Assembly (NCBI GenBank): GCA_020720115.1 | Contig: DYPD01000011.1 | Location: 8,888 to 53,091 of the forward strand | Source of the DNA: Thiomargarita sp. | GTDB lineage: Bacteria > Pseudomonadota > Gammaproteobacteria > Beggiatoales > Beggiatoaceae | Length of the DNA: 44,204 nucleotides | Direction: 5' to 3' | Notes under the pieces: generated by a model | Databases searched by the model: none | What the model saw: only the letters and a program-made list of their open reading frames with translations | Told to the model about the DNA's origin: nothing | Shown: piece after piece, positions 8,231-41,526 of the stretch | Layout of the letters: each line of letters begins with the position of its first letter | Numbering within the stretch: the stretch's first letter is position 1 | Position numbers and translations under genes: made by a program

Positions 8231-8348
8231 TGGCTCAATGCGCCGCCAGCCTCCGATGCGTGACAAACTATGAAAAATTGCGCTCACATTCGCTAAACTG
8301 ATGCTGATGGTTGCTGATATTACCCTTACTCTGTTTAGGAGAAATGAA

Positions 8349-11300
8349 TTGAAAACGCTATTTTATCGCTTATTACTGGCTGCATTCGCGCTGATCGCCG
8401 CACAAGCGCAGGCTTCGCTACCACCGCCATTAGAACAGCAGAAAACGCCTGATACGCCCGTGACCAGCGGCGGCGAAGTGCGTGTGCCGCTCCCCGACTA
8501 TACCCATTTGCTGGAGCAGGCAAAGCCGCAAGACAAGCCCGCGCCTGCGCCCTATGCCATAGGGCAAGCCAGCGCCACAGTAACGGTGGAAAACCATGAG
8601 CAGCGGCAGATGGCGCAAGTGGCGATTGAATTGGATGTGCAAGTGCAGGAAGACCAGTGGACACAGATTCCGCTGCTGGCAAGCCACACTGCGCTGAGTA
8701 AGGCGGAGGTGGATGGACAAGCGGTGCAACTGGTCAATGGCGCTGAAGGCTTAAGTTGGGTCAGTCGTCAAGCGGGGCGCTATCATCTGCTGTTGGAATA
8801 TCGCCTAGATGCCAGCGGCAACGAGCGCGGTTGGCAGTTAGCTCTGAGTTTACCGCCAGCGGCGGGCACGGATTTGTTGCTGGAATTGCCTGGCACGCAA
8901 TTGGATGTGGCGGTTGCGCCTGCGGTTGGTGTGACTCAAACCGAGCAGGACAGCAACACCCAGGTAAAGGCGCAAGTGCCCGCTACGCGCTTGGCGCAAA
9001 TCACTTGGCAACAGCCAACGCTGGATGGCTACAGCATCAGTCGCGCTTTTTATCGCGGCGAACTCAAAGAGGATGCGCTGTTTTGGGAAGCGGTGTTACA
9101 AGTCGAGGTGTTTGGTAAGGAACAATTCAAGCTGCCGTTGCTGCCAGCGAATGTGATTTTAAGCGGTGCGCGTGTGGATGGAGAAACCGCAGTGCTGTTG
9201 GTGGAAAAACCAGAAAATCCATCATTTAAGCGCAGCAAAGGTGCTCCCAGCAACAACCAAGAAAACTGGTTAAGCACGCTGGTCAAAGGTGTCGGACAGC
9301 ATCAGGTGCAGTTGCTGTTTCAAACCCCGGTCACGCAAGACAAAGGACCGCCCAGCGCAGTGTTGCACAGCTTGCCCGTGCCCATTTCCAAAATCGAACT
9401 CCAGTTGCCAGGGCGCAAAGAAGTCAGCATCAAACCTGCTGCCAGCGTGCAAGCGCGTTACGAGGGCGAAGGCGAGGCGCTACAGACAGTAGCGGCGGCG
9501 CATGTGCCTTTGAGCGAACAAGTGACTCTGAGTTGGACTGAAGCGGTGCCGGAAGAAGCGCAAGATCAGCTCCGCGCCAACGCCAGCCTGTATCATGCGG
9601 TACATGCTGAGGAAGGTGTGCTCCATGGCCGCGCCTTCATTCACTACGAAATCACCCGCAGCGAAACCAGTGTGCTGCATTTAGAAATGCCGCCCGATGT
9701 GCAAATCAATCGCATCCAAGCCACCGGCGGCGGGGTTGCGGATTGGCGGGCGCAATGTGTCGGCAAAACAACCGCCAAGCCGCAACCGCCAAGCGACAGC
9801 AACGCCGCCGCCCCTGCTGGCGGCAGCGACTCGTGCGAAAAGCAACAGGTCAGCGTGTTTTTAGACCGTCAAGTCAAAGGCGAATTTCAGTTTGAAGTGC
9901 AATATGAACGCTTACTGGGCGGACCTTCTGGCGACACCGCCGCATCCATCAACATCCCACTCCTACGCGCCACACAGGTCCACCGCCAGCGCGGCATGTT
10001 GGCGCTGCTTTCTGGACAAGAACTCGCCTTGCAACCCGTACAAGCCGAGCGCGTCTCCAAAGTCGGCGAAAATCAACTGCCAAGCTTCGTGCGCCAAGCC
10101 CTGCAAATGACCGTCGCCCACACCTACAAATACACCGACAGCAATCCGCAAGTGAATGCCAAAGCCGTTGCCCCAGAACGCAAAGCCGGCAAATTCGACG
10201 CCCAAGTAGACACCCTGATTTCCATCGGCGATGTCACCCTCAAAGGCGCCACCACGCTGGAACTCAACGTCAAATCCGGCAGCCTCATGAGCCTGCAATT
10301 ACAACTGCCCACCTCAGTTAATCTACTCGGTTTAAGCAGCCCCGCATTGCGCACTTACCAAGTCAAAACCAGCGACGCAGTGCAAAATGTACAAGTAGAT
10401 TTTACTCAAGAAATTCAAGGACAATTTCGTATCGAATTGAATTACGAGCAAATTTTACCCGAAGGCGGCGAAGCCTCCGCAGTACCCACGCCCGCCGTAC
10501 CCGACGCCGAAGTTGAATTTGGGCGCATCGCCGTTGAAGCCCTCGCCGCCGTTGAAGTCCAAGCCGCCACACTCGAAAGCCTCTCCACCCTCGATCTCAA
10601 CGAACTACCGCAACAACTGGTGCTCAAAACCACCAACCCCATTTTACTGGCTTACCGCTATGTACATCCGCCCTACAGCCTCAAGCTCAAAATCACCCGC
10701 CATCAAGAAGTCGAAGTCCAGGTCGCCAGCATCGAACAAGCCCAATACGACACCCTGCTCACCCGCGACGGGCTGGAAGTCACCACCGCCAGCTACACAG
10801 TGCGCAATAGCCGCAAACAATTCCTACGCTTACAACTGCCCCAAGGCGCAGAAGTGTGGTCAGCCGAAGTCGGCGGTAAAGGCGAAAAACCCGCCCGCGC
10901 CGACGACGGACGCTCAGTGCTGCTGAAAATGATCAACGCCACCAGCGGCTTCCCGCTACAACTGGTCTACGCCGTACAGCACGACAAAATCACCCAACGC
11001 GGACAAATACAACTACAACTACCGCGCCCCGACATCCTCGTCACTCACACCCGCTGGGACGCCTACCTACCTGCTGGCGTCGAATACCGCCGCCCCGACA
11101 CCAACCTAGAAATCCGCTCTGGCGCATTCATGCAAAACGTCAGCATCCCCGACAGCCTCTCCCGCAAAGCCGCGCCACAATACCAGCAAAACAACAGCCT
11201 ACAGCTCAACCTACAACTCAACGTACCCAAACAAGGCGTACAATTCGCCTTTGAAAAACTCTACGCCAACAAAGCCGCCGAAGACGCCGGTTTCAGCGTC

Positions 11301-11567
11301 AACTACATCAGCAAAGCCACCCGCGCCTGGGGCTTCTGGCTCAACCTATTCGGCACACTACTGCTAGGCTTCTGGCTATTGGTCTGGCGCTTCAAACTAC
11401 TCAACCTACCGCCAGTCACCGGCATAGCAGCACTCGCGTTAGGTTTAGCCAGCCTCACAGCCGCCTTCTTCCTGTTCTACGCCAACCCGCTGCATTTATT
11501 CTGGCAAGCACTCGGCGTTGCCCTGCTGATGGGCATCATTCTGTGGCGTCGGCGGTTTCTAGCCTAA
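8349..11567 (+). CDS. Large exported beta-rich protein with C-terminal membrane anchor, unknown family
   Basis: About 1072 residues. TTG at 8349 is preferred: an AGGAG lies 7 bases upstream and translation then begins with a textbook signal peptide ending near AQAQAS; a longer frame from 8301 would put 16 non-signal residues in front. The body is dominated by amphipathic beta strands and Gln/Ala/Val-rich segments with few Cys (a short Cys-containing loop near residues 475-500), consistent with repeated beta-sandwich domains. The last 80 residues hold about three hydrophobic helices ending in a basic WRRRFLA tail, so the bulk probably faces the periplasm, anchored at the C terminus. I do not recognise the family and propose no function. 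Confidence 0.8.
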   Translation: MKTLFYRLLLAAFALIAAQAQASLPPPLEQQKTPDTPVTSGGEVRVPLPDYTHLLEQAKPQDKPAPAPYAIGQASATVTVENHEQRQMAQVAIELDVQVQEDQWTQIPLLASHTALSKAEVDGQAVQLVNGAEGLSWVSRQAGRYHLLLEYRLDASGNERGWQLALSLPPAAGTDLLLELPGTQLDVAVAPAVGVTQTEQDSNTQVKAQVPATRLAQITWQQPTLDGYSISRAFYRGELKEDALFWEAVLQVEVFGKEQFKLPLLPANVILSGARVDGETAVLLVEKPENPSFKRSKGAPSNNQENWLSTLVKGVGQHQVQLLFQTPVTQDKGPPSAVLHSLPVPISKIELQLPGRKEVSIKPAASVQARYEGEGEALQTVAAAHVPLSEQVTLSWTEAVPEEAQDQLRANASLYHAVHAEEGVLHGRAFIHYEITRSETSVLHLEMPPDVQINRIQATGGGVADWRAQCVGKTTAKPQPPSDSNAAAPAGGSDSCEKQQVSVFLDRQVKGEFQFEVQYERLLGGPSGDTAASINIPLLRATQVHRQRGMLALLSGQELALQPVQAERVSKVGENQLPSFVRQALQMTVAHTYKYTDSNPQVNAKAVAPERKAGKFDAQVDTLISIGDVTLKGATTLELNVKSGSLMSLQLQLPTSVNLLGLSSPALRTYQVKTSDAVQNVQVDFTQEIQGQFRIELNYEQILPEGGEASAVPTPAVPDAEVEFGRIAVEALAAVEVQAATLESLSTLDLNELPQQLVLKTTNPILLAYRYVHPPYSLKLKITRHQEVEVQVASIEQAQYDTLLTRDGLEVTTASYTVRNSRKQFLRLQLPQGAEVWSAEVGGKGEKPARADDGRSVLLKMINATSGFPLQLVYAVQHDKITQRGQIQLQLPRPDILVTHTRWDAYLPAGVEYRRPDTNLEIRSGAFMQNVSIPDSLSRKAAPQYQQNNSLQLNLQLNVPKQGVQFAFEKLYANKAAEDAGFSVNYISKATRAWGFWLNLFGTLLLGFWLLVWRFKLLNLPPVTGIAALALGLASLTAAFFLFYANPLHLFWQALGVALLMGIILWRRRFLA

Positions 11568-11664: not shown

Positions 11665-13014
11665 GTGAAACAACTTTCTTTTTTAAAAATGGATGAACCA
11701 AAAATAACAACAGACACTCAAGAATGGGGAACATTTAAGGACAGCCTGCGTGCGCCAATTCATAACTGGTTTACTTATCCGGCGGGGTTTTCCTATAAAG
11801 CCGTTGAATCTAGTATACAAACGCATGGTATCAAAGAAGGGCAGATTATCTATGATCCATTTATGGGATCAGGCACAACCAATTTAGTGGCTAAAAAATT
11901 AGCCATTAGCTCTTATGGTGTTGAAGCCCATCCTTTTGTATTTAGAATTGCTAAAACCAAAATGAACTGGACGATTAGCAACAATGCTATTCACCGTGCT
12001 CTCCGAGTAGTAGAAAGCAACATTAAAGCGCAACAACACAGCTTGAGCCAAACACAGGTATCAGAATTTCTAGCCACAGAATTTCCAGAACTCATTTTGA
12101 AATGCTATGAACACAACACTTTATTAGATTTGTGGTGTATTCGTAATGCCATTACCAATAGCGATTTACCAACAGAAATAAAAGATTTTTTCTTTGTTGG
12201 CTTAACCAGCGTGTTACGCCAGGTTGCAACCGCAGCGACAGGCTGGCCCTACATCGCGCCCAATAAACAAAAAGTATCCTCGCTCAATAAAAATGCTTTT
12301 GTTGAATTTACACAACAAATACATACTATGCTCATAGATGTTCAAGAAACTATTCAAGAAACGCACCCAAATTACTTAAAGCATTCGCATCAATTGTTTA
12401 ATGGCGATTCGCGTTACACCGAACACCTGATTCCGAGTTTATGCGTTGATCATGTTTTCACTTCACCGCCCTATCTCAATAATTTTGATTATGCTGATCG
12501 TACTCGACTAGAACTCTATTTTTGGGGAGAAGCCAAGAATTGGGGAGATATTTCAGAACAGATTCGCACCAAGTTAATTACCTCTGCAACGACACAGATT
12601 TTGCGCACCGACGCAAAATATAACTTAGCCGATGATTTGCAAACAAATTGCCCCTATGTGTTTGATTTTTTGCAAAAATCAATTTCAGAGCTGAGTGCAA
12701 TCAGAGGCACTCGCGGCGGTAAAAAAAGTTACGATTATTTAGTTTCTGGATATTTCAATGATATGTTTAAAATTATTTCTGAGGTCTATAGAGTATTAAA
12801 ACATAATACAAAAGCCATATTTGTCTTGGGAGATTCTGCGCCTTATGGCATACATATTCCCACAGATGAATTAATTGGCAAAATCGGTTTAGGCATAGGT
12901 TTTTCTGATTACCGAATTGATATTTTAAGAGCGCGGGGCGGAAAATGGAAAGCTAATCCACAACGACATAATGTAGAGCTGCGTGAATCAATTGTCACTT
13001 TAACCAAGACATGA
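11665..13014 (+). CDS. DNA methyltransferase of a type II restriction-modification system
   Basis: 449 residues. The SAM-binding motif DPFMGSGTT starts at Asp64 and the catalytic motif TSPPY lies at 266-270, so motif I precedes motif IV as in the beta-class order. SPPY is typical of N4-cytosine methyltransferases, though N6-adenine activity cannot be ruled out. A segment of roughly 160 residues between the two motifs could hold the target-recognition region. The frame opens with GTG at 11665; ATG at 11689 is an alternative. The next gene, three bases downstream, looks like the cognate nuclease. The base composition is more AT-rich than ubiD and the exported-protein gene, consistent with acquisition. 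Confidence 0.88.
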   Translation: MKQLSFLKMDEPKITTDTQEWGTFKDSLRAPIHNWFTYPAGFSYKAVESSIQTHGIKEGQIIYDPFMGSGTTNLVAKKLAISSYGVEAHPFVFRIAKTKMNWTISNNAIHRALRVVESNIKAQQHSLSQTQVSEFLATEFPELILKCYEHNTLLDLWCIRNAITNSDLPTEIKDFFFVGLTSVLRQVATAATGWPYIAPNKQKVSSLNKNAFVEFTQQIHTMLIDVQETIQETHPNYLKHSHQLFNGDSRYTEHLIPSLCVDHVFTSPPYLNNFDYADRTRLELYFWGEAKNWGDISEQIRTKLITSATTQILRTDAKYNLADDLQTNCPYVFDFLQKSISELSAIRGTRGGKKSYDYLVSGYFNDMFKIISEVYRVLKHNTKAIFVLGDSAPYGIHIPTDELIGKIGLGIGFSDYRIDILRARGGKWKANPQRHNVELRESIVTLTKT

Positions 13015-13017
13015 AAA

Positions 13018-13860
13018 ATGATAGATACTATTCAAAACCCAGGCAGTGCGCTGGGAGAAGCCATAGGTGCAGAAATGGAAAATGCACTCAATCTATTTTT
13101 AACTACACTGGTAGAAAATCGTGGCTACCATTTTTTAAGTAAAAGCCCGCTCAAAAATACTCAAGGAAAACCCAAAAAATTATTGATGTATGACAAATTT
13201 GGCACCGCATATAATCTTGATGCAGTGATTGCAAATGAGCGTATGCAGCCGATTATTTTGATTGAATCAAAATATATCCGTTACACAAAACATAATCGGG
13301 ATAAAGGTAGTTGGCTTTGTACTGCACATCCGGCGGTTAGACGGCGTTACAATAGCATTAGAAGCTCAATTGCTGTTTTAGCCGGCAATTGGAGTTCATC
13401 ATCTTTGGCAATGATGAGAAGCTTTGAAATCAATATTTTCCTTATTCCATTTAATCGAATTCGCACTATTTTGCAGACCTATGGCATTGATTTTGATTGG
13501 GATGAAAAAGATAGAAAGGCAGCAATGGTAGCCTGGAATAGCTATTCCAATTTAGCTGATGCGCAAAAATCAGCCATCGGCATGGAGATGGTTAATCTCG
13601 TTAAACATGAGTTAGAAACATTAGTGCTGGGTATTCTTGATGATAATTTAGAACGTGAAGTGGAACGCATTACTATTGATCTGTATTCAAATCTTGGAGA
13701 AGTTAAAGTTTATGAGTTTTCAACGATTGAACACGCAGTGACGTTTTTAAATACCAGTGAACTCCGAACAGTATTTATAACAAGTGATTCACTGACATTA
13801 TTTGATCAGCCCTCTACTTCAGATGAAGAAATTTATCATCTCAACAATAATCCAACATGA
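13018..13860 (+). CDS. Putative type II restriction endonuclease, PD-(D/E)xK type
   Basis: 280 residues, with the start ATG three bases after the methyltransferase stop. The likely active site is NLDAVI (Asp68) on one strand followed by ILIESKYIRY (Glu83-Ser84-Lys85) on the next, the spacing expected for PD-(D/E)xK nucleases. The N terminus is helical and the C-terminal third is acidic. The assignment comes from adjacency to the methyltransferase and this motif; the recognition sequence cannot be read from the sequence. The gene shares the AT-rich composition of its partner. Confidence 0.75.
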   Translation: MIDTIQNPGSALGEAIGAEMENALNLFLTTLVENRGYHFLSKSPLKNTQGKPKKLLMYDKFGTAYNLDAVIANERMQPIILIESKYIRYTKHNRDKGSWLCTAHPAVRRRYNSIRSSIAVLAGNWSSSSLAMMRSFEINIFLIPFNRIRTILQTYGIDFDWDEKDRKAAMVAWNSYSNLADAQKSAIGMEMVNLVKHELETLVLGILDDNLEREVERITIDLYSNLGEVKVYEFSTIEHAVTFLNTSELRTVFITSDSLTLFDQPSTSDEEIYHLNNNPT

Positions 13861-14956: not shown

Positions 14957-14973
14957 AAAATGTATTCTGTCCT

Positions 14974-15804
14974 CTATGGGGCGGGTAGCATGTCAATCAG
15001 TGCTTGTAATTCTTGCGCAACAGTGTCGGGTTGATCCTGGTGAATGTAATGTCCAGCACCCTTGACATGCAGCACTTTCTGTATTCCCAGTAAGCGCAAC
15101 CAGTCAGTTTCAAGCGTCCGTACCATGCTTTCAAATGCACCCATTTCGATTGGCTGAAATTGGGTTCGAGTGAGCAGGCGTACGGGTACGGTAAGCGGCG
15201 TTTGTAGGTTAAGCGTGGCAAGACAAAGCACCTGCGCATCAAATTCAGCGCGACTTGCAGCATTAAATAGGGTGGCGCGTATAGTTTTCAGCATGGCTGC
15301 CGCGACGGGTACCTCTTGCTGCATAGATTGCCCGTGCTGCGGATGAGTTGGATCAAGCAGTAACAATCCGCTGACTTCTTTTGGATAAAGTTTAGCAAAA
15401 ACAAACTGGTACAATCCACCCAACGAATGCCCAAGCAAAACATAGGGCGGCGCAAGTCCGGCTGCTTGAAGAGTGCTATGTAATTCTGCGGCGATGCTGC
15501 AAGGATCGCGTGTTGAGCGCGTGGGGGAGCTTTCGCCGTAACCGGGTCTATCATAAGCAAAGACCTGATTTGATTGCGCTATTTTGCTATAAATAGAGTG
15601 CCATGCGGCTTTACCATCGCCTAGCCCTGATTGTAGCACCACCACAGGTTTGCCACCCCCCGCCACTGCAAAAGCTATCTGCCCGCTCGGTTGTTTAACT
15701 GTGCCTGTCGTTGGGAGAGAAGCACAACCACCAAGCCCCAAGGCTAACAGCCAACTGCCAAGCCAGCGCCAATAAGGGGTTTTCTTACTTAAGCTGATAT
15801 ACAT
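14974..15804 (-). CDS. Alpha/beta-hydrolase lipoprotein
   Basis: 276 residues. The N terminus is a lipoprotein signal: basic residues, WLGSWLLALG, then the lipobox LGGC. The hydrolase core has strand VVVLQSGLG, YDRPGYGES, the nucleophile elbow GHSLGG, and GAGHYIH with the likely catalytic His; LLLDPTH carries a candidate acid. It is probably anchored in the inner or outer membrane facing the periplasm, acting on an ester, acyl or amide substrate that cannot be named from sequence. It is the first gene of the operon with bcp, pspB and pspC, which suggests a link to envelope damage or repair. Confidence 0.85.
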   Translation of the reverse strand: MYISLSKKTPYWRWLGSWLLALGLGGCASLPTTGTVKQPSGQIAFAVAGGGKPVVVLQSGLGDGKAAWHSIYSKIAQSNQVFAYDRPGYGESSPTRSTRDPCSIAAELHSTLQAAGLAPPYVLLGHSLGGLYQFVFAKLYPKEVSGLLLLDPTHPQHGQSMQQEVPVAAAMLKTIRATLFNAASRAEFDAQVLCLATLNLQTPLTVPVRLLTRTQFQPIEMGAFESMVRTLETDWLRLLGIQKVLHVKGAGHYIHQDQPDTVAQELQALIDMLPAP

Positions 15805-15954
15805 TCTGTTTGAACTCCGCCTAATTTCTTAAATTCACTTGACAAAAAACTAATCTCATTAGTTATTATAGTCGGATTACTGAATATTTAAAATAAAAGA
15901 TATATAAAATCATATGCTTAATAATTATAAAAATATAATTATTGAGTAATCCTA

Positions 15955-16443
15955 CTATACTTTATTTGTTTTAAATATATTTCCCATGTGGGTTTCAAGA
16001 TCGAATTTGTCTGTTGTTTTACTGAAATGCGGCTTATATTTTCCATAGTTACTTGGCGGTGAGTCTTTATATACAACGCAAAATAGGAAATGATAATCCG
16101 CCTTTGATACTGAATTATCGTTAAATAACTGTTTTAGTGTCTCCTGGCTTTGTTTTAGTTTTTCTCGTAATTTTTCCTTTTTAATATCACTGGCTGACTG
16201 ATTTTTAAATTCTATGCAATACAAAAAACATTCATTGTTTGTCTGCATAATAACCAACGCATCTGATGAACTCGGAGTTTTCTCAGGGTAGATGATTCTA
16301 GTCATACAATCAAAATCATACACTTTTTGCTCGCTACGGCACAAATATTGATTATTTTCCTTATCATGACTTGTTTGTTTTAACGTCTTACAGCAAGATA
16401 CATATTTATTTGACTCATTTAGTTTGAACGATAGGTTATCCAT
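15955..16443 (-). CDS. Small PD-(D/E)xK-like protein coupled to the GTPase/ATPase gene
   Basis: 162 residues from ATG 16443, which overlaps the upstream ATPase gene stop by eight bases (ATGGATAA), so the two are almost certainly co-translated. Residues 57-80 read as a PD-(D/E)xK core: SSSDALVIM with Asp61, a short turn, then CIEFKNQ with Glu78-Phe79-Lys80. A long basic helix follows, as in many Holliday-resolvase or Mrr-like folds. Length fits a stand-alone nuclease subunit. I do not recognise a named family. The AT-rich composition matches its partner. Nuclease activity is an inference from this motif and the pairing. Confidence 0.55.
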   Translation of the reverse strand: MDNLSFKLNESNKYVSCCKTLKQTSHDKENNQYLCRSEQKVYDFDCMTRIIYPEKTPSSSDALVIMQTNNECFLYCIEFKNQSASDIKKEKLREKLKQSQETLKQLFNDNSVSKADYHFLFCVVYKDSPPSNYGKYKPHFSKTTDKFDLETHMGNIFKTNKV

Positions 16444-18985
16444 GAGTAGCTTCCTCAAGGTCAAGCCGATTAAACTCATTGAATGGCTCTGATAGTTTGT
16501 CAAAAATCTTACTAATATCATGTGTAACGCATTGAACATTAGATTGATTATTTTCCTTTTCTGTCAAATAAAGTTCAATATTATCAACTTTTTCACGCCG
16601 ACTATAGCGGACTAATGCCTCTATCATGTAGGGGCTGTGCGAGCTAAGCATGACCCTAACTCCATTTTTTACCAGGGCAATGATTAACTCAGCATATTTT
16701 AACTGCCAGTTAGGATGAATATGCACCTCTGGCTCATCCAGGATAAGTACGCTCCCAGGTCTAATAGTTTGATTCTGAATTAACATTTGTAGAATACCAA
16801 ACATTTTTATGCCGGTTGAAGTATCCAATATAGGAATAGGTCCAGTAATAGATTCTTTTTCATATACAAGATCATCTACTGTTGCTTGTTTGTAACGAAT
16901 TTCACCACCAATAATCTCATGAATACTTTGTAATAGTTCATGGTGTTTATCTAAAGGAATAGGGGAAGAGGGCTTGGATGCTAAGCGTAAAACAAGATCA
17001 GTTACCCATTCTGGCAATTCATAATTTAGATCGTTTTGTTTTGCTAGTAATTGGGTATTTTTGATATAAGAAAATTTGTCCAGCACATCAGGGGTATCTA
17101 TAAAAACAGGATAATTAGGATACAGTTTCAGGTCAGGATAAGCCAAGCTATTTCTATATAAAATGAGTTTCCGCACTTCCTTAAATAGCATCTTGCTAAT
17201 CGTGCTTTTTCCCGTATCGTTTTCTCCTGCAATAATGGTTAAACTTGTCAGTTTTATTTCCGCATCTTTGATTATTTTATATCCTCTTATGCGCAGTTGT
17301 ATGCCGTTTTTAGCGCTAATTTTGATTCTTGGATCAGCCGCGCAAATAGCATTAAAACTATTCTTAACCCGCTCTTCGAAGTCTGAGGAATTTATGCTCT
17401 GGGCAACACCAGAAAATATCTCACTGATAGCCACTGCTCTTTGATTTTTAGAACCTTGCCCTGAGATGCTTAATACTGCCTCCCAAGCAGCATGTTGATT
17501 AGTTAATATTGTCCAACGGCTATAATCTAATAGGCGCTGAAACAACTCTTGTTTTACTTGATTGATGCGTTTTCCTTGTTCGCCAAGTGTAATTTTTTCT
17601 GGAAATTTTATTATTTGCTGAAAGTTAAATTCTCTAAATACGGCATTGCATAAGTCTGAAATTGGCGTTATGTCGTTATATTGATCTTCAGAATTAACCA
17701 TACGGCGGTTGAACGCATATACCGTTTTCCAATGCCCCTCATTTATTTGCTTGTTCAATTTTTCTAGAAAAGGTTTAAGGAAATTCCCCGATAAAAAATC
17801 AATCAAATCACAGTTGCAACTGATAGCAAAGAATTTTTTAGACTCTGCTTGAAGATGATCTAGAAATTTTTTAATTTCAGCTTCAGCATCTTCAGCATCT
17901 TCAGCATCTTTAGCATCTATAGTGGATAAATAAAAACACATGTCTTCTTTAATATCTACACTGTTGCTTTCCTGCCGCCCGTGTACTCTCCCGTTAAGAT
18001 TACGAAGTGCAACGCTTATGGCGTCTTTGTCGCCAGCAATTGATAGAGGATTAAGTTTATTAAATATAACTTTTAATTTATTAGCATAACCTTTTTCAAA
18101 TATATCTTTTAGCTGTTTTTCTGAAGAAGTAAAGAGCGTGGTGTCCGACATGCCTTCCACAAACAGGATGTAGTCGGAGAAATGGAAGAAATCGAAATGC
18201 CTGATTGGGGGTGCATTCAGGTTGTGCCCAATGCCTTCACTATCTATTAATACAAGCGGGTAATCTTTAAATTGCGGATTAAGAAATTCTCCTTCAACTC
18301 TTGCATAAGATAGCACAGACGCAAGAGAACCCTGTGCATTTGATAGTAATTTCTTACTTTCTTTTATAAAAATAGTTTCATCATCTCTTTCGTAAGAATA
18401 GTATTTTTCTGATAACTCATGTGTGCAAATTGTTTTGACTGCAGAATCTATCAAAAGATAAATTTCTTCTTTCTTGCTTTTTACAAACTCTGATGTAGCT
18501 TCAGTTTCCAATACATCCTCATGCTTCTTGTCTTTTGCAAATTGAAGTATCTCTTGTGCTATTTCTTCTAGTTGTTGTGAAGTTAAAATAAATTTGAATC
18601 GAACAGTTTGGTCTGGTGTCTCAGACAGACTGTTCTTAACAAGATTTTCTATAAGCGTATCATCGTTTTGTTGTGCTTTATTTTGAAAAACGCTGTCAAT
18701 TGCATCGAATAAAATATCCTCAATTGCTGATAATATTTCATCTTGAGTCTTAAATACCAAGGTTGCTTTAAATGGCAGACCTTTACGCAAAACATATTCT
18801 GTTGTGACAGTTGTTGTTCTGCCATTCCCTATATTTGGAAAAGCATGTTTTTCAGTCCCCATTATTTTTCTAATAATGGTTGTTTTTCCTGCTCCGGTGT
18901 TACCTAGAACATAGACCTTCAGCAAATCTCTTGGAAGCGGATGAACTGGTTCTAAAATATCTTGAGTATCAGAAAAATTTGGCAT
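16436..18985 (-). CDS. Fused dynamin/GTPase-like and ABC/OLD-type ATPase, candidate defence protein
   Basis: 849 residues, preceded by AAGGA. The N-terminal half has a P-loop GNTGAGKT (28-35), then a switch-like DSEGIG (Asp248) and FNKLN (Asn309-Lys310), an order resembling G1, G3 and G4 of GTPases. The insert between G1 and G3 is long, helical and acidic. A second nucleotide-binding domain starts near residue 570: Walker A GENDTGKST (587-595), Walker B LILDEPEVHIHP (Asp750-Glu751), then SSHSPYMIE as the switch. That C-terminal pattern is the RecF/OLD-like ATPase family (AAA_21-type) common in anti-phage systems. Joining both NTPases in one chain, with a nuclease-like partner, is unusual. Function is inferred, not shown. 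Confidence 0.8.
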   Translation of the reverse strand: MPNFSDTQDILEPVHPLPRDLLKVYVLGNTGAGKTTIIRKIMGTEKHAFPNIGNGRTTTVTTEYVLRKGLPFKATLVFKTQDEILSAIEDILFDAIDSVFQNKAQQNDDTLIENLVKNSLSETPDQTVRFKFILTSQQLEEIAQEILQFAKDKKHEDVLETEATSEFVKSKKEEIYLLIDSAVKTICTHELSEKYYSYERDDETIFIKESKKLLSNAQGSLASVLSYARVEGEFLNPQFKDYPLVLIDSEGIGHNLNAPPIRHFDFFHFSDYILFVEGMSDTTLFTSSEKQLKDIFEKGYANKLKVIFNKLNPLSIAGDKDAISVALRNLNGRVHGRQESNSVDIKEDMCFYLSTIDAKDAEDAEDAEAEIKKFLDHLQAESKKFFAISCNCDLIDFLSGNFLKPFLEKLNKQINEGHWKTVYAFNRRMVNSEDQYNDITPISDLCNAVFREFNFQQIIKFPEKITLGEQGKRINQVKQELFQRLLDYSRWTILTNQHAAWEAVLSISGQGSKNQRAVAISEIFSGVAQSINSSDFEERVKNSFNAICAADPRIKISAKNGIQLRIRGYKIIKDAEIKLTSLTIIAGENDTGKSTISKMLFKEVRKLILYRNSLAYPDLKLYPNYPVFIDTPDVLDKFSYIKNTQLLAKQNDLNYELPEWVTDLVLRLASKPSSPIPLDKHHELLQSIHEIIGGEIRYKQATVDDLVYEKESITGPIPILDTSTGIKMFGILQMLIQNQTIRPGSVLILDEPEVHIHPNWQLKYAELIIALVKNGVRVMLSSHSPYMIEALVRYSRREKVDNIELYLTEKENNQSNVQCVTHDISKIFDKLSEPFNEFNRLDLEEATHG
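17881..17916. repeat. 9-bp tandem repeat inside the GTPase/ATPase gene
   Basis: A nine-base unit (CTTCAGCAT on the plus strand) repeats about four times, the last copy with one change. On the coding strand it yields an Asp-Ala-Glu repeat near residues 357-368 between the two NTPase domains. Unit gain or loss would change linker length without a frameshift. Confidence 0.85.
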
Positions 18986-19079
18986 AATAAATTCCTTGTA
19001 AATTTATTTTTTGAAAATAGCAGCAAACCCAATTCTATGCTTGATATGTGCAAACACTGGTTGCTAAGCGGCTTTGTTT

Positions 19080-19141
19080 GCGGTTGTTTAAACAAATCCC
19101 CCGCAGATGTACTGCTGTTTGGGGGGGGCACAAACAACCGC
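19080..19141. terminator. Inverted repeat between gcvR and the ATPase gene, possible terminator
   Basis: GCGGTTGTTT (19080-19089) and AAACAACCGC (19132-19141) are perfect 10-bp arms. Inside them a C5/G-rich pair and GCAG/CTGC can extend the fold. An eight-G run (19121-19128) lies in the structure. It follows gcvR and precedes the ATPase gene on the minus strand, with no clear U-tract, so its role in termination is uncertain. Confidence 0.4.
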
Positions 19142-19165
19142 TTGGTGTGAACTGATGCGTATGCT

Positions 19166-19705
19166 TTATTTCATTGGCGCTAACATGGCGTCGAGATTCA
19201 GCGCATCGCACATGTCCATAAACTCGCCGCGTAAGGTGGCGATGGAGAGGTCGCCTGGAATGCTGATGGTCATATTCATGGAAAACATCGGCGTGCCTGT
19301 GTGTGCGGCGGCGTAGCTGCTGGTTTGTAGTTCTTCGATGTTGATGTTGCGCACGGCGAAGAATTTGGCGATGTCGCGGACGATGCCGGGGTGATCCATT
19401 GATACGACTTCAACCATATAACTTAATAGCTTGGCTTCGGTGCTACGGGGTTCGGTGCGCTTGATGGTGAGCAGTAATCCAAGCTTTTCGGCGGCGTGTG
19501 GCAGGCTGTTTTCTAAACGCGCTACCGCATCCCAGGTGCCGGCAATCAGCATGATGATGGCGAATTCGCCGCCGAGTACGGTCATGCGGCTTTCCATGAC
19601 GTTGCAGCTATAGTCGGCAATGGTTTCGGATAAAGCGTCAACAATGCCGGGGCGGTCGCGCCCTAGGGCGGAAATGACGAGTAAGTTGTGCATGATTTTT
19701 TTCAT
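19166..19705 (-). CDS. gcvR: Glycine cleavage system regulator GcvR-like, two ACT domains
   Basis: 179 residues. The first ACT domain covers about 6-80 (SALGRDRPGIVDALSETIAD) and the second about 93-170 (VEVVSMDHPGIVRDIAKFFA, then NIEELQT). Length and the two GRDRPG/DHPG loops match GcvR, which binds GcvA and represses the glycine cleavage genes in Escherichia coli. No gcv genes are nearby. ATG 19705 is used; ATG 19693 is an alternative and neither has a strong ribosome-binding site. The gene lies downstream of the LuxO-type regulator on the same strand with a 78-bp gap. Confidence 0.85.
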   Translation of the reverse strand: MKKIMHNLLVISALGRDRPGIVDALSETIADYSCNVMESRMTVLGGEFAIIMLIAGTWDAVARLENSLPHAAEKLGLLLTIKRTEPRSTEAKLLSYMVEVVSMDHPGIVRDIAKFFAVRNINIEELQTSSYAAAHTGTPMFSMNMTISIPGDLSIATLRGEFMDMCDALNLDAMLAPMK

Positions 19706-27359: not shown

Positions 27360-28001
27360 ATGGAGAAAAAATTAGTAAAGATAGGCGAAGCGGCAAAACT
27401 ACTTGGAACATCCCCTGATACCTTACGAAAATGGGAGGTGACAGGAGAATTACTGCCAAAACGCAAAACCAAAGGCGGAACACGTTATTATGACGTTGCC
27501 GAACTGCAAAACTTAGGTGATAGCGATGCGCCGACGGTTTGTTACGCACGGGTTTCAAGCCACGACCAGAAAGAAGACTTGCAACGTCAGCAAGATATGC
27601 TCGAAGCTTACTGTGCGGCAAAAGGCTGGCGAACCGAAGTCATAACCGATTTAGGTTCGGGCATGAACTATCGCAAAAAAGGACTGAACAAACTGCTAGA
27701 AATGATTTTGCGCAAACAGGTCAAGCGTTTAGTTCTTACCCACAAAGACCGTTTATTGCGCTTTGGAGCAGAACTCGTTTTTGCCTTATGTGAAGTGCAA
27801 GACATTGAAATAATTATTATTCATAAAGGCGAACAGCCACGTTTTGAAGAAGAATTGGCAAAAGATGTACTCGAAATCATCACCGAGTTTAGCGCACGGC
27901 TTTATGGCAGTCGCAGTCATAAAAGCAAGCAATTCATGGACAAACTGAATGAAGCGGCTAACGAATTGAGCAAACAAGATGCTCCTCGCCCACAAGATTG
28001 A
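27360..28001 (+). CDS. tnpA: IS607-family serine recombinase TnpA
   Basis: 213 residues. A MerR-like DNA-binding domain opens the protein (IGEAAKLLGTSPDTLRKWE). The resolvase catalytic domain follows, with the nucleophile Ser in CYARVSSHDQ, then LQRQQDML, LTHKDRLLRFG and a final basic helix. This is the N-terminal DNA-binding, C-terminal catalytic order characteristic of IS607 recombinases, which excise and insert a circular intermediate with little target specificity. It looks intact. Its last 23 bp overlap tnpB in another frame. Confidence 0.95.
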   Translation: MEKKLVKIGEAAKLLGTSPDTLRKWEVTGELLPKRKTKGGTRYYDVAELQNLGDSDAPTVCYARVSSHDQKEDLQRQQDMLEAYCAAKGWRTEVITDLGSGMNYRKKGLNKLLEMILRKQVKRLVLTHKDRLLRFGAELVFALCEVQDIEIIIIHKGEQPRFEEELAKDVLEIITEFSARLYGSRSHKSKQFMDKLNEAANELSKQDAPRPQD

Positions 28002-29142
28002 ATTGCGCCCCACGCCTGAACAGGCGATTTATTTAGACAAAGCCTGTGGCTCAAAACGACATTGCTTTAATCAATTGTTAGCGCATTTTTCCAAACCAGA
28101 AAATAAATGGTCGAAAAGTCTGGCATATCAATACTATATCAACGTCATTCGCAAAGAATTTCAATGGTATAGCGAAGTATCAAGCCGCATCACCCGTAAT
28201 GCCATTGACGATTTAGACAACGCATTTTCTCATTTTTTCAGACGACTCAAACTCAAACAAAAGTGCGGTTTTCCGCGTTTCAAAAAGAAAGCTATTAACG
28301 ACAGCTTTGCCCTGCGCGAATCGGCAAAATTTGATTGTATAGGACGAGAATTAAGACTTGAAAAGCTCAAAACTCGAATTGAAATGCGTCAAGCCTTACG
28401 CTTTCAAGGCACAACAAAACAAGTCACGATTTCAAAACGGGCAGGTAAATATTTTGCTTCGATTTTGGTCGAAACAGAAGATTACAACCCAAACGATAAC
28501 GACAGAAAACAATCAGTTGGTGTTGATTTTGGCATAAAAGAATTGGCTGTATTAAGCGCGGGCGTAGTGTTTGCGGCAAATCAAAAGCTGAAAGCGAATC
28601 TTAAAAAGTTGGCAAAACTTACAAGCACTCTTGCAAAGAAAATCAAAGGTTCAAATCATCGAGCGAAAGCCAAGCTCAAGATTTCCAAGTTACATTTTCG
28701 TATTGCAAATCAGCGACAAGCCTTGCTACATGAGCTTTCTGATTATTTAACCAAGACTTTCGATGTGATAACCATTGAAGATTTGAACGTCAAAGGCATG
28801 GTGAAAAATAGGAAACTGAGCCGCGCCATCAGTGATGCGGGTTTTGGCACTTTGCGGCAACTTATTGAATACAAAGCAAAGTTAAGGAATTGCGTGGTGG
28901 TGGTTGCCAACCGATTTTATCCCAGTAGCAAAACTTGCTCTTGTTGTGGAAAAATCAAGGAAAACTTAACACTCGCCGAGCGTATTTTTGCTTGCGAGTG
29001 CGGTCTTTGTGTGGATAGAGATTTGAATGCAGCACTAAATCTTGATAAATACGGTCAGGACAGGTTACAGCCAGACCTTAAATGCGCATCAGAGCAGAGT
29101 CAGACTGTGGATTTATTCACAGCGTCTGTGTTGACGGTGTGA
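27979..29142 (+). CDS. tnpB: TnpB, RNA-guided nuclease of IS607
   Basis: 387 residues, full length. The RuvC-like active site looks complete: Asp in GVDFGIK, Glu in TIEDLNVKG, and Asp in CVDRDLNAALNL. The zinc finger is CSCCG followed by CECG. The N terminus (HKIELRPTPEQ) is the standard TnpB helix-turn start. TnpB proteins are programmable nucleases guided by a transposon-end RNA (omega RNA) whose scaffold overlaps the tnpB 3' end and whose guide comes from the flanking DNA. Here the guide would be the sequence just after the right end, near 29180-29200. Confidence 0.95.
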   Translation: MLLAHKIELRPTPEQAIYLDKACGSKRHCFNQLLAHFSKPENKWSKSLAYQYYINVIRKEFQWYSEVSSRITRNAIDDLDNAFSHFFRRLKLKQKCGFPRFKKKAINDSFALRESAKFDCIGRELRLEKLKTRIEMRQALRFQGTTKQVTISKRAGKYFASILVETEDYNPNDNDRKQSVGVDFGIKELAVLSAGVVFAANQKLKANLKKLAKLTSTLAKKIKGSNHRAKAKLKISKLHFRIANQRQALLHELSDYLTKTFDVITIEDLNVKGMVKNRKLSRAISDAGFGTLRQLIEYKAKLRNCVVVVANRFYPSSKTCSCCGKIKENLTLAERIFACECGLCVDRDLNAALNLDKYGQDRLQPDLKCASEQSQTVDLFTASVLTV

Positions 29143-40102: not shown

Positions 40103-40527
40103 AATATTCCTTGATACCAATGTGCTGATTTACTCTTTCGACAAAGATGCGCCGGGCAAACAGGCAATCGTGCGACATTATTCAGGCAGCACTGGCTGAC
40201 GGCAACTGCGTCATCAGTTCGCAAGTGGTACAGGAGTTTCTGAATGTCGCTACACGGAAATTCGCTGAACCCTTATCGGTGGATGATTGCCTGGTTTACT
40301 TAAATTCCGTTTTGGCGCTACTTTGCCAGATATTTGCAAGTATCCCGCTGTACAAAAGAACTTTAGAACTAAGAAAGCAATACAATTACAGTTTATATGA
40401 CTCATTGGTTATAGCCGCCGCGCTTGAAGCACAGTGTACACTGTTGTATTCGGAAGATTTGCAGGATTGGCAGAAAATCGGTGAATTGAGGATTGTGAAT
40501 CCGTTTAATGGACGTAATAATCAATAG
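40091..40527 (+). pseudogene. PIN-domain toxin VapC, frameshifted
   Basis: The gene starts at ATG 40091 with IFLDTNVLIYSFDKD, carrying the first PIN acidic residue. After about 25 codons the frame meets a stop, while the rest of the domain continues in another frame from about 40165: DIIQAALADGNCVISSQ, VQEFLNVA (acidic Glu), and YDSLVIAAAL with LYSEDLQDW (the last acidic pair). A one-base loss near 40165-40175 would explain this. PIN toxins are ribonucleases; the broken gene should be inactive unless this is a sequencing error. The stop codon TAG lies on the edge of an inverted-repeat element. Confidence 0.85.
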
Positions 40528-40687
40528 ACTTGTTGCGCCTATAAAACAAGAAAAATCAATGTCTTATAAAAAGTGCTTTGGCTTGATGACTATGAAAAAT
40601 CAATGGCTTAGCTGAAATCTGAAAAATTTGGAGTCAGCTATATTCTCGAACTCCGCATTTTTACTGGATTTATGTCGCAACAAGTCT
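40526..40687. repeat. 162-bp MITE-like element with perfect 12-bp terminal inverted repeats
   Basis: AGACTTGTTGCG (40526-40537) and CGCAACAAGTCT (40676-40687) are exact inverted copies, each preceded or followed by the T/A of a TA dinucleotide. No coding capacity. The element supplies the TAG stop of the broken vapC gene. A diverged relative is at 38893-39022. Confidence 0.8.
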
Positions 40688-40708
40688 AATAGCCAAACCG
40701 AAGAGTCC

Positions 40709-40827
40709 GTAGGATGTGCTGAGCGTCTTTTTGGGAAGCGCATCAATCGAGAAGTGTAATAGCTGGGGAATAACCTCAGCGCATCCTACAATTAGCCCGC
40801 GTAGCTTCTTTTTCGTCCCACGCTCCA
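40709..40827. repeat. Dispersed inverted-repeat element, copy 2 (complete)
   Basis: GTAGGATGTGCTGAG (40709-40723) and CTCAGCGCATCCTAC (40775-40789) are inverted ends with one mismatch. The interior and the tail AATTAGCCCGCGTAG match copy 1; copy 2 lacks a short stretch found before the right end of copy 1. The rest of the gap to 40918 holds only a small hairpin. Confidence 0.9.
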
Positions 40828-40849
40828 GTTCACTCCCCCCATGCAAAAA

Positions 40850-40875
40850 CCTGACAGGTCTTGAAGACCTGCCAG
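40850..40875 (+). repeat. Palindromic hairpin upstream of the second VapBC module
   Basis: CTGACAGGTCT (40851-40861) pairs with AGACCTGCCAG (40865-40875) with one mismatch and a tiny loop. It is followed by ATTTGGGGCGGGG and lies about 45 bp before the antitoxin start. Part of it (CCTGCCAGATTT) resembles the terminator stem at 43671. It may be a dispersed palindrome rather than a control element. Confidence 0.5.
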
Positions 40876-40918
40876 ATTTGGGGCGGGGTCTGAACGCTTA
40901 CGAATGAGGATGACCGTT

Positions 40919-41140
40919 ATGCACTCCAACATGCAAGCTATCAGTCAACTGGCACGCCACCTGCCGCCGCTGGCGCAAGCGGAATTATTGGATTTCGCGC
41001 AATTTCTTGCTGCCAAATACCGTACCGAGCCATGGCAACCAAACGCACGGGTTTTGCAAGCCGGGAAACGCCTCGCCGAACTGGGCGGCACACAGCCGCA
41101 ACTCGAACCTGTTCCGCGCCGCCGGGAGGAAACCGCATGA
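40919..41140 (+). CDS. vapB: VapB-like antitoxin (DUF2281 type)
   Basis: 73 residues. ATG 40919 is preferred because AGGA lies eight bases upstream; in-frame ATGs at 40904 and 40910 are alternatives. The N terminus (ARHLPPLAQAELLDFAQFLA) is the leucine/alanine-rich helix of DUF2281-type antitoxins, and the C terminus is a flexible Pro/Arg-rich tail that would wrap the toxin. Its stop overlaps the toxin start (ATGA). Expected to bind and neutralise the VapC next to it and to repress its own promoter. Confidence 0.75.
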   Translation: MHSNMQAISQLARHLPPLAQAELLDFAQFLAAKYRTEPWQPNARVLQAGKRLAELGGTQPQLEPVPRRREETA

Positions 41141-41526
41141 TCCTGGTGGATACTTCGGTGTGGATAGACCATTTTCGCGAGCATCTTCCACCGCTGGCCG
41201 GATTGCTGCAAACCGGTCAGGTTTTGTCGCATCCGCTGATTATCGGTGAGCTTGCTTGTGGCAACCTCCACGACTGGCAAGCCGTGCTGGAATTGCTGGA
41301 CGAATTGCCGACCACCGCCGAAGTGGAACATCCCGAGGTACTGGCTTTTATCGAACAACATCGGCTGATGGGGCGCGGCGTCGGCATCGTGGATGTCACT
41401 TTGTTGGCCTCGGCGCGGCAGGTCGGCGTGCCGTTATGGACGCGGGACAAGCGCCTATGTGCTGTCGCGCAAGGACTCGGTTTGCTGGCTACGCTGGAAT
41501 ATCCCGGCACGATTGAGCAAGCGTAG
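41137..41526 (+). CDS. vapC: PIN-domain ribonuclease toxin VapC
   Basis: 129 residues, intact. ATG 41137 overlaps the antitoxin stop and has GGGAGG upstream. PIN acidic residues are Asp5 in ILVDTSVWIDHF, Glu in IIGELACGN, Asp in GIVDVTLLAS and Asp in LWTRDKRL. VapC toxins cut RNA, often initiator tRNA or rRNA. Much more GC-rich than the neighbouring broken module, which suggests separate acquisition. The stop codon TAG is contributed by the first bases of dispersed repeat copy 3. Confidence 0.92.
   Translation: MILVDTSVWIDHFREHLPPLAGLLQTGQVLSHPLIIGELACGNLHDWQAVLELLDELPTTAEVEHPEVLAFIEQHRLMGRGVGIVDVTLLASARQVGVPLWTRDKRLCAVAQGLGLLATLEYPGTIEQA

Follow-up and report, generated by a model that had tools for sequence, protein, structure and literature searches.

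A 44,204-nucleotide stretch of a Thiomargarita sp. genome (GenBank assembly GCA_020720115.1, contig DYPD01000011.1, positions 8,888 to 53,091; hereafter the window) raises the question of what a dynamin-like GTPase domain does when it is joined in one chain to an ABC ATPase of the OLD/PtuA type. The fusion protein is encoded by a gene that overlaps a second, downstream gene for a putative nuclease. On balance, we favor the reading that these two genes form a horizontally acquired immune module in which the dynamin-like GTPase gates an ATPase-nuclease effector.

The fused protein and its overlapping partner gene

Architecture, gene pairing, and modularity can be read from the sequence or from a structural model. 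The 849-codon frame runs uninterrupted on the minus strand, while the plus strand there is riddled with stops, and its translation places every motif at the residues given in an earlier note on this DNA (28-35, 248, 309-310, 587, and 750-751; Table 1). That note had described an AT-rich gene for one 849-residue protein carrying a GTPase-fold domain and an OLD/ABC-type ATPase. The single open frame, the G+C content (35.6%, and 31.8% for the downstream gene outside the overlap, relative to 47.1% for the whole window), and the Pfam matches and predicted structure all agree with this description. Five 9-base tandem units within the gene (17878-17922) encode an Ala-Glu-Asp repeat at residues ~355-369 that does not occur in the relative from genome G019 described below.

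The N-terminal half is by predicted fold a dynamin-superfamily GTPase. Sequence searches gave a Pfam match to MMR_HSR1 on residues 23-65 (1.2e-4, barely over the curated cut-off) and, among solved structures, a weak match to LRRK2 Roc (0.037). The structure predicted with a 22-sequence alignment as input, confident over most of residues 1-550, resembles Fzo1 (Z 18.1, 230 aligned, 3.7 Å), SynDLP (Z 17.7, 273 aligned, 3.9 Å), MFN2 (mitofusin-2; Z 17.3), IniA (Z 17.0), and BDLP (Z 15.3), and the top Foldseek matches were SynDLP (5.9e-7) and IniA (1.5e-5). VIA covered residues 12-552, and the absence of a fold from its list is no evidence. The earlier note had named the lack of a nucleotide-binding fold in this half as fatal to its proposal; the model predicts that such a fold is present. 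Helices at residues 403-549 of the model are candidates for a dynamin neck or stalk.

The P-loop, switch Thr, and G3 residues are retained, with G28, T30, G31, A32, G33, and K34 of the P-loop invariant in the 22-row alignment. G1 and G3 lie 220 residues apart, with helices inserted between switch I and G3. P-loop and G3 are present in 94/94 rows of the GTPase family, a count that for G3 is partly by construction, since G3 belonged to the search patterns. Classical dynamins carry DxPG at G3, from which the DxEG of the window protein differs. The GTPase motifs of the earlier note were correctly placed, but G4 departs from the NKxD consensus: the window protein has NKLN and that of G019 NKAN, neither of which fits the T/NKxD of the dynamin superfamily. 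All 11 HNH-fused relatives (see below) carry S-K/R-x-D, and both shorter stand-alone relatives carry TKLD. The G4 Asp determines the guanine specificity of GTPases; because G4 here reads NKxN, we leave the nucleotide open and call the N-terminal half GTPase-like by fold.

From its sequence, the C-terminal half is assigned to the ABC ATPases of the OLD/PtuA/AriA group. Pfam gave AAA_15 (PF13175; 1.4e-14, over the curated cut-off) and AAA_21 (9.5e-12), and PADLOC gave HEC-02A (8.7e-26), PD-T4-4_A (2e-24), AriA (5e-15), and PtuA (1.4e-11 at best). Since PADLOC contains defense proteins only, these matches alone cannot prove a role in defense. The PADLOC check proposed in the earlier note found no full-length model for the fusion protein among the best 25 of 93 matches, and the best PADLOC 2.0 match to the N-terminal half was 6.1e-4. 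That note had called this half an OLD/RecF-type ATPase; it is of the PtuA/AriA/PD-T4-4 kind rather than an OLD nuclease. No TOPRIM was recognized in the C-terminal half among the best 25 of 27 Pfam families at E 1, and the protein stops 66 residues past the ABC histidine 783. Membership in the OLD nucleases (class 1-3) or Gabija GajA was rejected, as no C-terminal TOPRIM was recognized in the ATPase protein among those families.

The earlier note missed the overlapping nuclease-like gene that makes this a two-gene module. Homologous starts place the likely start of the downstream gene at 16443, for a 162-aa product and an 8-base overlap with the fusion gene. The protein shares 50% identity over 176 aligned residues with the partner of the G019 fusion. 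It was aligned (alignment A6, 14 rows) with relatives that lie behind related ATPases and were picked out through their position or with a profile, leaving out L159 (a near-copy) and L033, L030, and L026 (fragments or remnant). The sole invariant columns are D, D, E, and K, the last three ordered D...ExK, so that the family carries a PD-(D/E)xK signature and its members are putative nucleases. Library scans including PADLOC and Pfam gave the downstream protein no HNH, PtuB, AriB, or DUF4435/TOPRIM match. PADLOC returned nothing for it at E 0.1, with the presence of a model for the second PD-T4-4 gene in that library left unchecked. Its profile found one match among PDB sequences (E 1.4), and viral contigs scanned with the nuclease yielded no relative.

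Table 1 Features of the module and its surroundings, in window coordinates
Feature	Position	Strand	Basis
Fusion gene, 849 aa, dynamin-like GTPase and OLD/PtuA-type ABC ATPase	16436..18985	-	ORF, Pfam, PADLOC, structure comparison
GTPase-fold domain, residues 19-384; helices between G2 and G3	17834..18931	-	model, dynamin-superfamily matches, motif spacing
G1 P-loop GNTGAGKT, residues 28-35	18881..18904	-	translation; conservation in 22 rows
G3 DSEGIGH, residues 248-254	18224..18244	-	translation, alignment
G4 NKLN, residues 309-312, Asn in place of consensus Asp	18050..18061	-	alignment
Helical neck-like region, residues 385-549, after GTPase domain	17339..17833	-	model secondary structure; inside IniA and BDLP alignment ranges
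ABC ATPase domain, residues 556-849	16439..17320	-	Pfam, PADLOC, alignment, tree
Walker A GENDTGKS, residues 587-594	17204..17227	-	translation, alignment
Walker B, residues 747-751, ends D750-E751	16733..16747	-	translation, alignment
PD-(D/E)xK-like nuclease gene, overlapping, downstream; maximal ORF 194 aa	15955..16539	-	family alignment, homologous starts
Catalytic-type Asp, D93 of 194-aa ORF	16261..16263	-	invariant in 14/14 rows
E-F-K, E110-x-K112 of 194-aa ORF	16204..16212	-	E and K invariant in 14/14 rows
Segment missing from same-genus genome; module and alpha/beta hydrolase gene	14957..19166		genome comparison
Type II restriction-modification pair, not part of module	11665..13860	+	library scans

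Relatives of the module and its probable acquisition

The idea that the fusion is unique to this genome was rejected, given the G019 relative and further relatives outside Beggiatoaceae. Among 57 genomes searched, 25 gave some match and two a full-length fusion: the window genome and G019, of the same family, in which a 50%-identical fusion with a nuclease gene behind it lies at another site. The GTPase half was found in 3/42 family genomes, one of these being a contig-edge piece with no ATPase behind it, and in 3/398 phylum genomes, the window genome included; the nuclease was found in 13/42 family genomes.

ATPase-nuclease pairs also occur without the GTPase. Fourteen loci with stand-alone family ATPases were chosen, and 11 carry a D...ExK open reading frame (ORF) directly downstream, counting that of L029, which is cut short; these loci gave no GTPase match. 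The three ATPases lacking a full partner have a remnant (L026), a fragment with ExK only (L030), and nothing before the contig end (L028). The remnant, at L026:7591-7848, lies without its D...ExK part behind an intact ATPase. Excluded from the partner count were the stop-broken ATPases of L033, L034, L038, and L159, second and more distant ones in L160 and L163, and many further ATPase matches of the 57-genome search. Pairs of the same kind are carried by a Klebsiella plasmid and an Acinetobacter plasmid. Seven of these stand-alone ATPases join the window and G019 proteins in the ATPase tree (96/95), inside a clade of such pairs (100/100); branches are long for L080, H19, H26, and the Klebsiella row, the first three of which were omitted from the approximately unbiased (AU) test. 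A single-protein scan of genome contigs found no relative, and neither did a scan of viral contigs with the ATPase half.

When genomes of 84,980 species were scanned with the GTPase alignment, 137 relatives emerged, and 80 of these were kept. The scan patterns contained the G3 motif (those of the viral scan also the P-loop). Near-copies count among the rows; six rows, truncated or split, were set aside (L053, L054, L056, L089, L105, and L137). Most kept relatives are stand-alone proteins of ~750 residues, with two shorter ones of 587 and 611 residues. Outside Beggiatoaceae, in Campylobacterota, Pseudomonadota, and Bacteroidota, 11 intact fusions of 944-993 residues have a different, longer ATPase as their C-terminal half (AriA 5.7e-40; PtuA 2.1e-22, from L044 only), with related genes directly downstream in 11/11 loci. 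The single such partner scanned with PADLOC matched PtuB (4.9e-20), and of three scanned with the Pfam HNH model, one scored above the cut-off and two scored below; in the others, the HNH nature rests on shared cysteines and histidines. The HNH ORF of L050 is short (179 aa). A search of 274 class genomes for the HNH-type ATPase, made without a positive control, found nothing.

In a GTPase tree of 39 hand-chosen rows, one clade (100/100) holds the window and G019 proteins, the two short stand-alone proteins, the HNH-type fusions, and two truncated relatives. Members of one GTPase clade are therefore fused to two types of ATPase that differ in the nuclease type accompanying them, and the trees suggest two independent fusions. 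Against this stands the finding that a single origin of both fused groups is not rejected by the tree tests (p-AU 0.187 and 0.318), so that two fusions and one fusion with later exchange are both compatible with these tests.

Stand-alone GTPase relatives of ~755 residues (L042-L137, e.g. L124-L134) occur in many phyla and on 16 viral contigs; phage records scanned with the GTPase half gave no match. The few scanned in PADLOC had weak matches only (LeoA, mad8, and PtuA). In L061, L063, L066, L068, and L075, an ORF of 487-490 residues shares 4 bases with the stand-alone GTPase gene and is a likely partner. A PtuA-like ATPase and an HNH-cluster gene (L080:4362-6440) lie ~1.2 kb from a stand-alone family GTPase, on the opposite strand. 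Of the two short stand-alone GTPases, which are the nearest to that of the window, one has a HEPN-like neighbor (0.0053; L042:2065-3066) and the other a HipA-like kinase (3.9e-5) with an unknown gene (L043:6208-7859).

Neighbors were scanned for ten loci, nine HNH fusions and the stand-alone L043 (75 of 78 listed ORFs; L046 and L049 left out). Among the best 25 of 85 PADLOC families, most were type I restriction genes, with two members each. In 2/9 HNH-fusion loci, the pair lies downstream of type I restriction-modification genes on the same strand: in Methylomonas (L052), the fusion gene begins 42 bases past a specificity-subunit-like gene, behind hsdM and hsdR, and in Pseudoalteromonas (L059) the order is hsdR, hsdM, two ORFs (the last 369 aa, unnamed), and the fusion.

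The window module itself lies at a site that is empty in a same-genus genome: 14 bp there separate the ends of the prxQ and gcvR matches, against 4.2 kb between these genes in the window. The 1-kb blocks either side of this segment have ~47-53% G+C, and in G019 the module is surrounded by other genes. We attribute the module to horizontal acquisition because of the empty site, the low G+C, the different surroundings in G019, and the presence of the GTPase half in so few family genomes.

Proposed mechanism and competing explanations

How the module works, including its switch, cue, and target and its role in defense, is what we infer here, proposing by analogy with PtuAB and PARIS a scaffold with a built-in switch. 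PtuA and AriA form oligomers in which their nucleases, PtuB and AriB, are bound. The ATPase would likewise assemble into an oligomeric scaffold to bind the nuclease and regulate it in their manner, and the GTPase domain would have been added as a trigger that switches through nucleotide-dependent dimerization or assembly. Infection would change its cue, which may be membrane damage, a phage assembly, or nucleotide pools. The switch would be transmitted through the helical region (385-549) to the ATPase, which would then free or activate the nuclease; the nuclease may cut tRNA or DNA, halting infection, probably at a cost to the cell. Septu loses immunity with Walker or HNH mutants and cuts tRNA-Tyr (PMC13096335), and the PtuAB of retron-Eco7 depletes tRNA-Tyr and aborts infection (PMC11555353).

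We consider it quite probable that the module acts in defense and likely that the nuclease is its effector, while a role of the GTPase half as trigger rather than effector is an even call. The type I restriction-modification genes by relatives, the insertion at an empty site, and the nearby restriction-modification pair are circumstantial signs consistent with the defense role.

Among known systems, PD-T4-4 shares an OLD-type ATPase, although HEC-02A outscores PD-T4-4_A on the window protein. PD-T4-4 is tabulated under both the AAA ATPase PF13175 and PD-(D/E)xK nuclease in the available part of PMC10952713; the window ATPase matches PF13175 and its partner has the D...ExK motif. The same part of that source mentions no GTPase half for PD-T4-4. 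HEC-02, a PADLOC candidate system, gives the best PADLOC match of the ATPase half, but the match is limited to residues 628-817, and a search of the open-access literature for the name HEC-02 found no paper.

Septu (PtuA/PtuB) and retron I-A effectors likewise encode an ABC ATPase together with a small nuclease, PtuA chains are among the Foldseek matches of the window model (E above 0.001), and the HNH-fused relatives have a PtuB-like gene (one scanned). However, the window partner is PD-(D/E)xK-like rather than HNH, and the PtuA models match its ATPase more weakly than several other OLD-type families do. Septu membership was rejected, as the partner gave no HNH or PtuB match. PMC10568477 describes PARIS as an OLD-type ATPase with a TOPRIM effector on a separate gene. 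AriA matches the window protein and, more strongly, profile A4 (7e-21), half of which is HNH-fused proteins. AriB is TOPRIM/DUF4435, in contrast to the PD-(D/E)xK-like window partner, and PARIS membership was rejected for lack of an AriB (DUF4435/TOPRIM) partner match. We know of no GTPase in PARIS.

Dynamin-like GTPases are linked to phage resistance in Eleos (LeoA/LeoBC), although LeoA matches the N-terminal half of the window protein at only 0.0028. To our knowledge, neither Eleos nor DynA has a fused ABC ATPase or nuclease gene. For DynA, the link to phage resistance is given in PMC8844932. A literature search confined to open-access papers, without preprints, brought up none that announces the fusion of an ATPase of this kind to a GTPase or dynamin. 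To judge from this search and the PADLOC 2.0 matches, we regard the fusion as an undescribed variant among ATPase-nuclease defense systems.

Several points weigh against the gated-nuclease module. The NKxN G4 of the window protein and its closest relative may mean that guanine specificity, and possibly hydrolysis, has been lost or changed, and the fusion protein has no hydrophobic stretch for membrane insertion (top 19-residue hydropathy 1.18). NCBIfam matches of the ATPase half are mostly to transporter ATPases over short stretches, none near the cut-off, and the assignment of this half rests on sequence because its structural model is poor. Pfam support for the nuclease is weak: PDDEXK_9 matches 2/14 family members below the cut-off (0.0066), and the commonest Pfam family of the rows is a weakly matching GST domain (4/14, best E 0.0063). 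A single-sequence model of the nuclease was uninformative (pLDDT, the predicted local distance difference test score, 45), and its C-terminus is ~20-24 residues shorter than in its closest relatives; the window copy could be decaying. For every member, the suggested defense role comes from sequence and context; the immediate window neighbors are mostly core genes, the restriction-modification pair lies outside the inserted segment, and restriction genes near relatives were counted without a random-gene control.

The G4 substitution of Asp by Asn in the window and G019 opens the possibility that the N-terminal half is no longer a GTP switch; the NKxN variant would then bind a different nucleotide, or no nucleotide at all, and the domain would serve for oligomerization alone. 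We regard this as unlikely, in view of the retained P-loop, switch Thr, and G3 residues and of the S-K/R-x-D kept in the 11 HNH-fused relatives. Improbable, too, is a dynamin-like half that is itself the effector, stabilizing or reshaping membranes during infection as is reported for DynA, with the ATPase and nuclease sensing or tuning it. The predicted dynamin fold and the weak LeoA (Eleos) match in the family (3.3e-6 for a stand-alone relative, the best among the proteins scanned) fit such a role, as does the delay of phage lysis by DynA (PMC8844932). Yet the protein lacks a hydrophobic stretch, the close ATPase-nuclease pair occurs without the GTPase, and both fused lineages retain a partner of nuclease type, although the type differs.

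ABC ATPases of this type resemble Rad50/SMC and the window neighbors are largely core genes, as might be expected of a housekeeping or DNA-repair protein (SMC/RecF/SbcC-like) with no part in defense. The rare and patchy GTPase half, the low-G+C segment at a site empty in a same-genus genome, and the type I restriction-modification genes upstream of two relatives make this explanation quite improbable. That two genes were joined by an error of assembly or annotation is scarcely credible; no supporting point was found for this artefact, and it was rejected, given the single open frame, the 50%-identical fusion in a second genome, and 11 analogous fusions elsewhere.

Returning to GTPase gating of a nuclease, we tentatively raise a broader idea, itself rather less than probable: that a GTP switch of the dynamin type is a trigger module of bacterial immunity that can be transferred, one GTPase clade serving two ABC ATPases, each with its own nuclease, to convert an infection cue into nuclease action. 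We know of no demonstration that a dynamin controls a nuclease in an immune system. ATPase-nuclease pairs (Septu, PARIS, and PD-T4-4) are common and their sensing of infection is often unclear; a covalent GTP-binding switch in two lineages would offer a handle on it, as point mutations in a single domain can part sensing from killing. If true, the bacterial immune use of dynamin-like proteins would widen from membrane support to nuclease control.

Neighborhood of the module and other window features

The restriction-modification neighborhood of the earlier note is partly upheld. The pair is real, comprising a type II methylase (11665-13014) and a restriction enzyme (13018-13860), with 37-39% G+C in 1-kb blocks over the pair, but it lies 2.1 kb away, beyond pspC-pspB-prxQ and the hydrolase gene and outside the inserted segment. 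It too is unmatched in the stretch of the same-genus genome used for comparison, whose end lies ~5 kb past pspC. The two low-G+C segments, 11665-13860 with this pair and 14957-19166 with the module, flank pspC-pspB-prxQ, and because neither matches the same-genus stretch, this spot may be an insertion hot spot. The repeat search found no clear insertion-site repeat, the window contains no tRNA, and promoter and terminator counts were not above those of shuffles.

Elsewhere in the window, a 1088-residue ORF (8301-11567) has no Pfam or PADLOC match at 1e-5. An IS607-type element (27360-29142) comprises a MerR/resolvase gene and, behind it, a TnpB (OrfB_IS605/Cas12f-like) gene, and two PIN-domain genes near a DUF29 gene (40147-41526) are possible toxin-antitoxin remnants.

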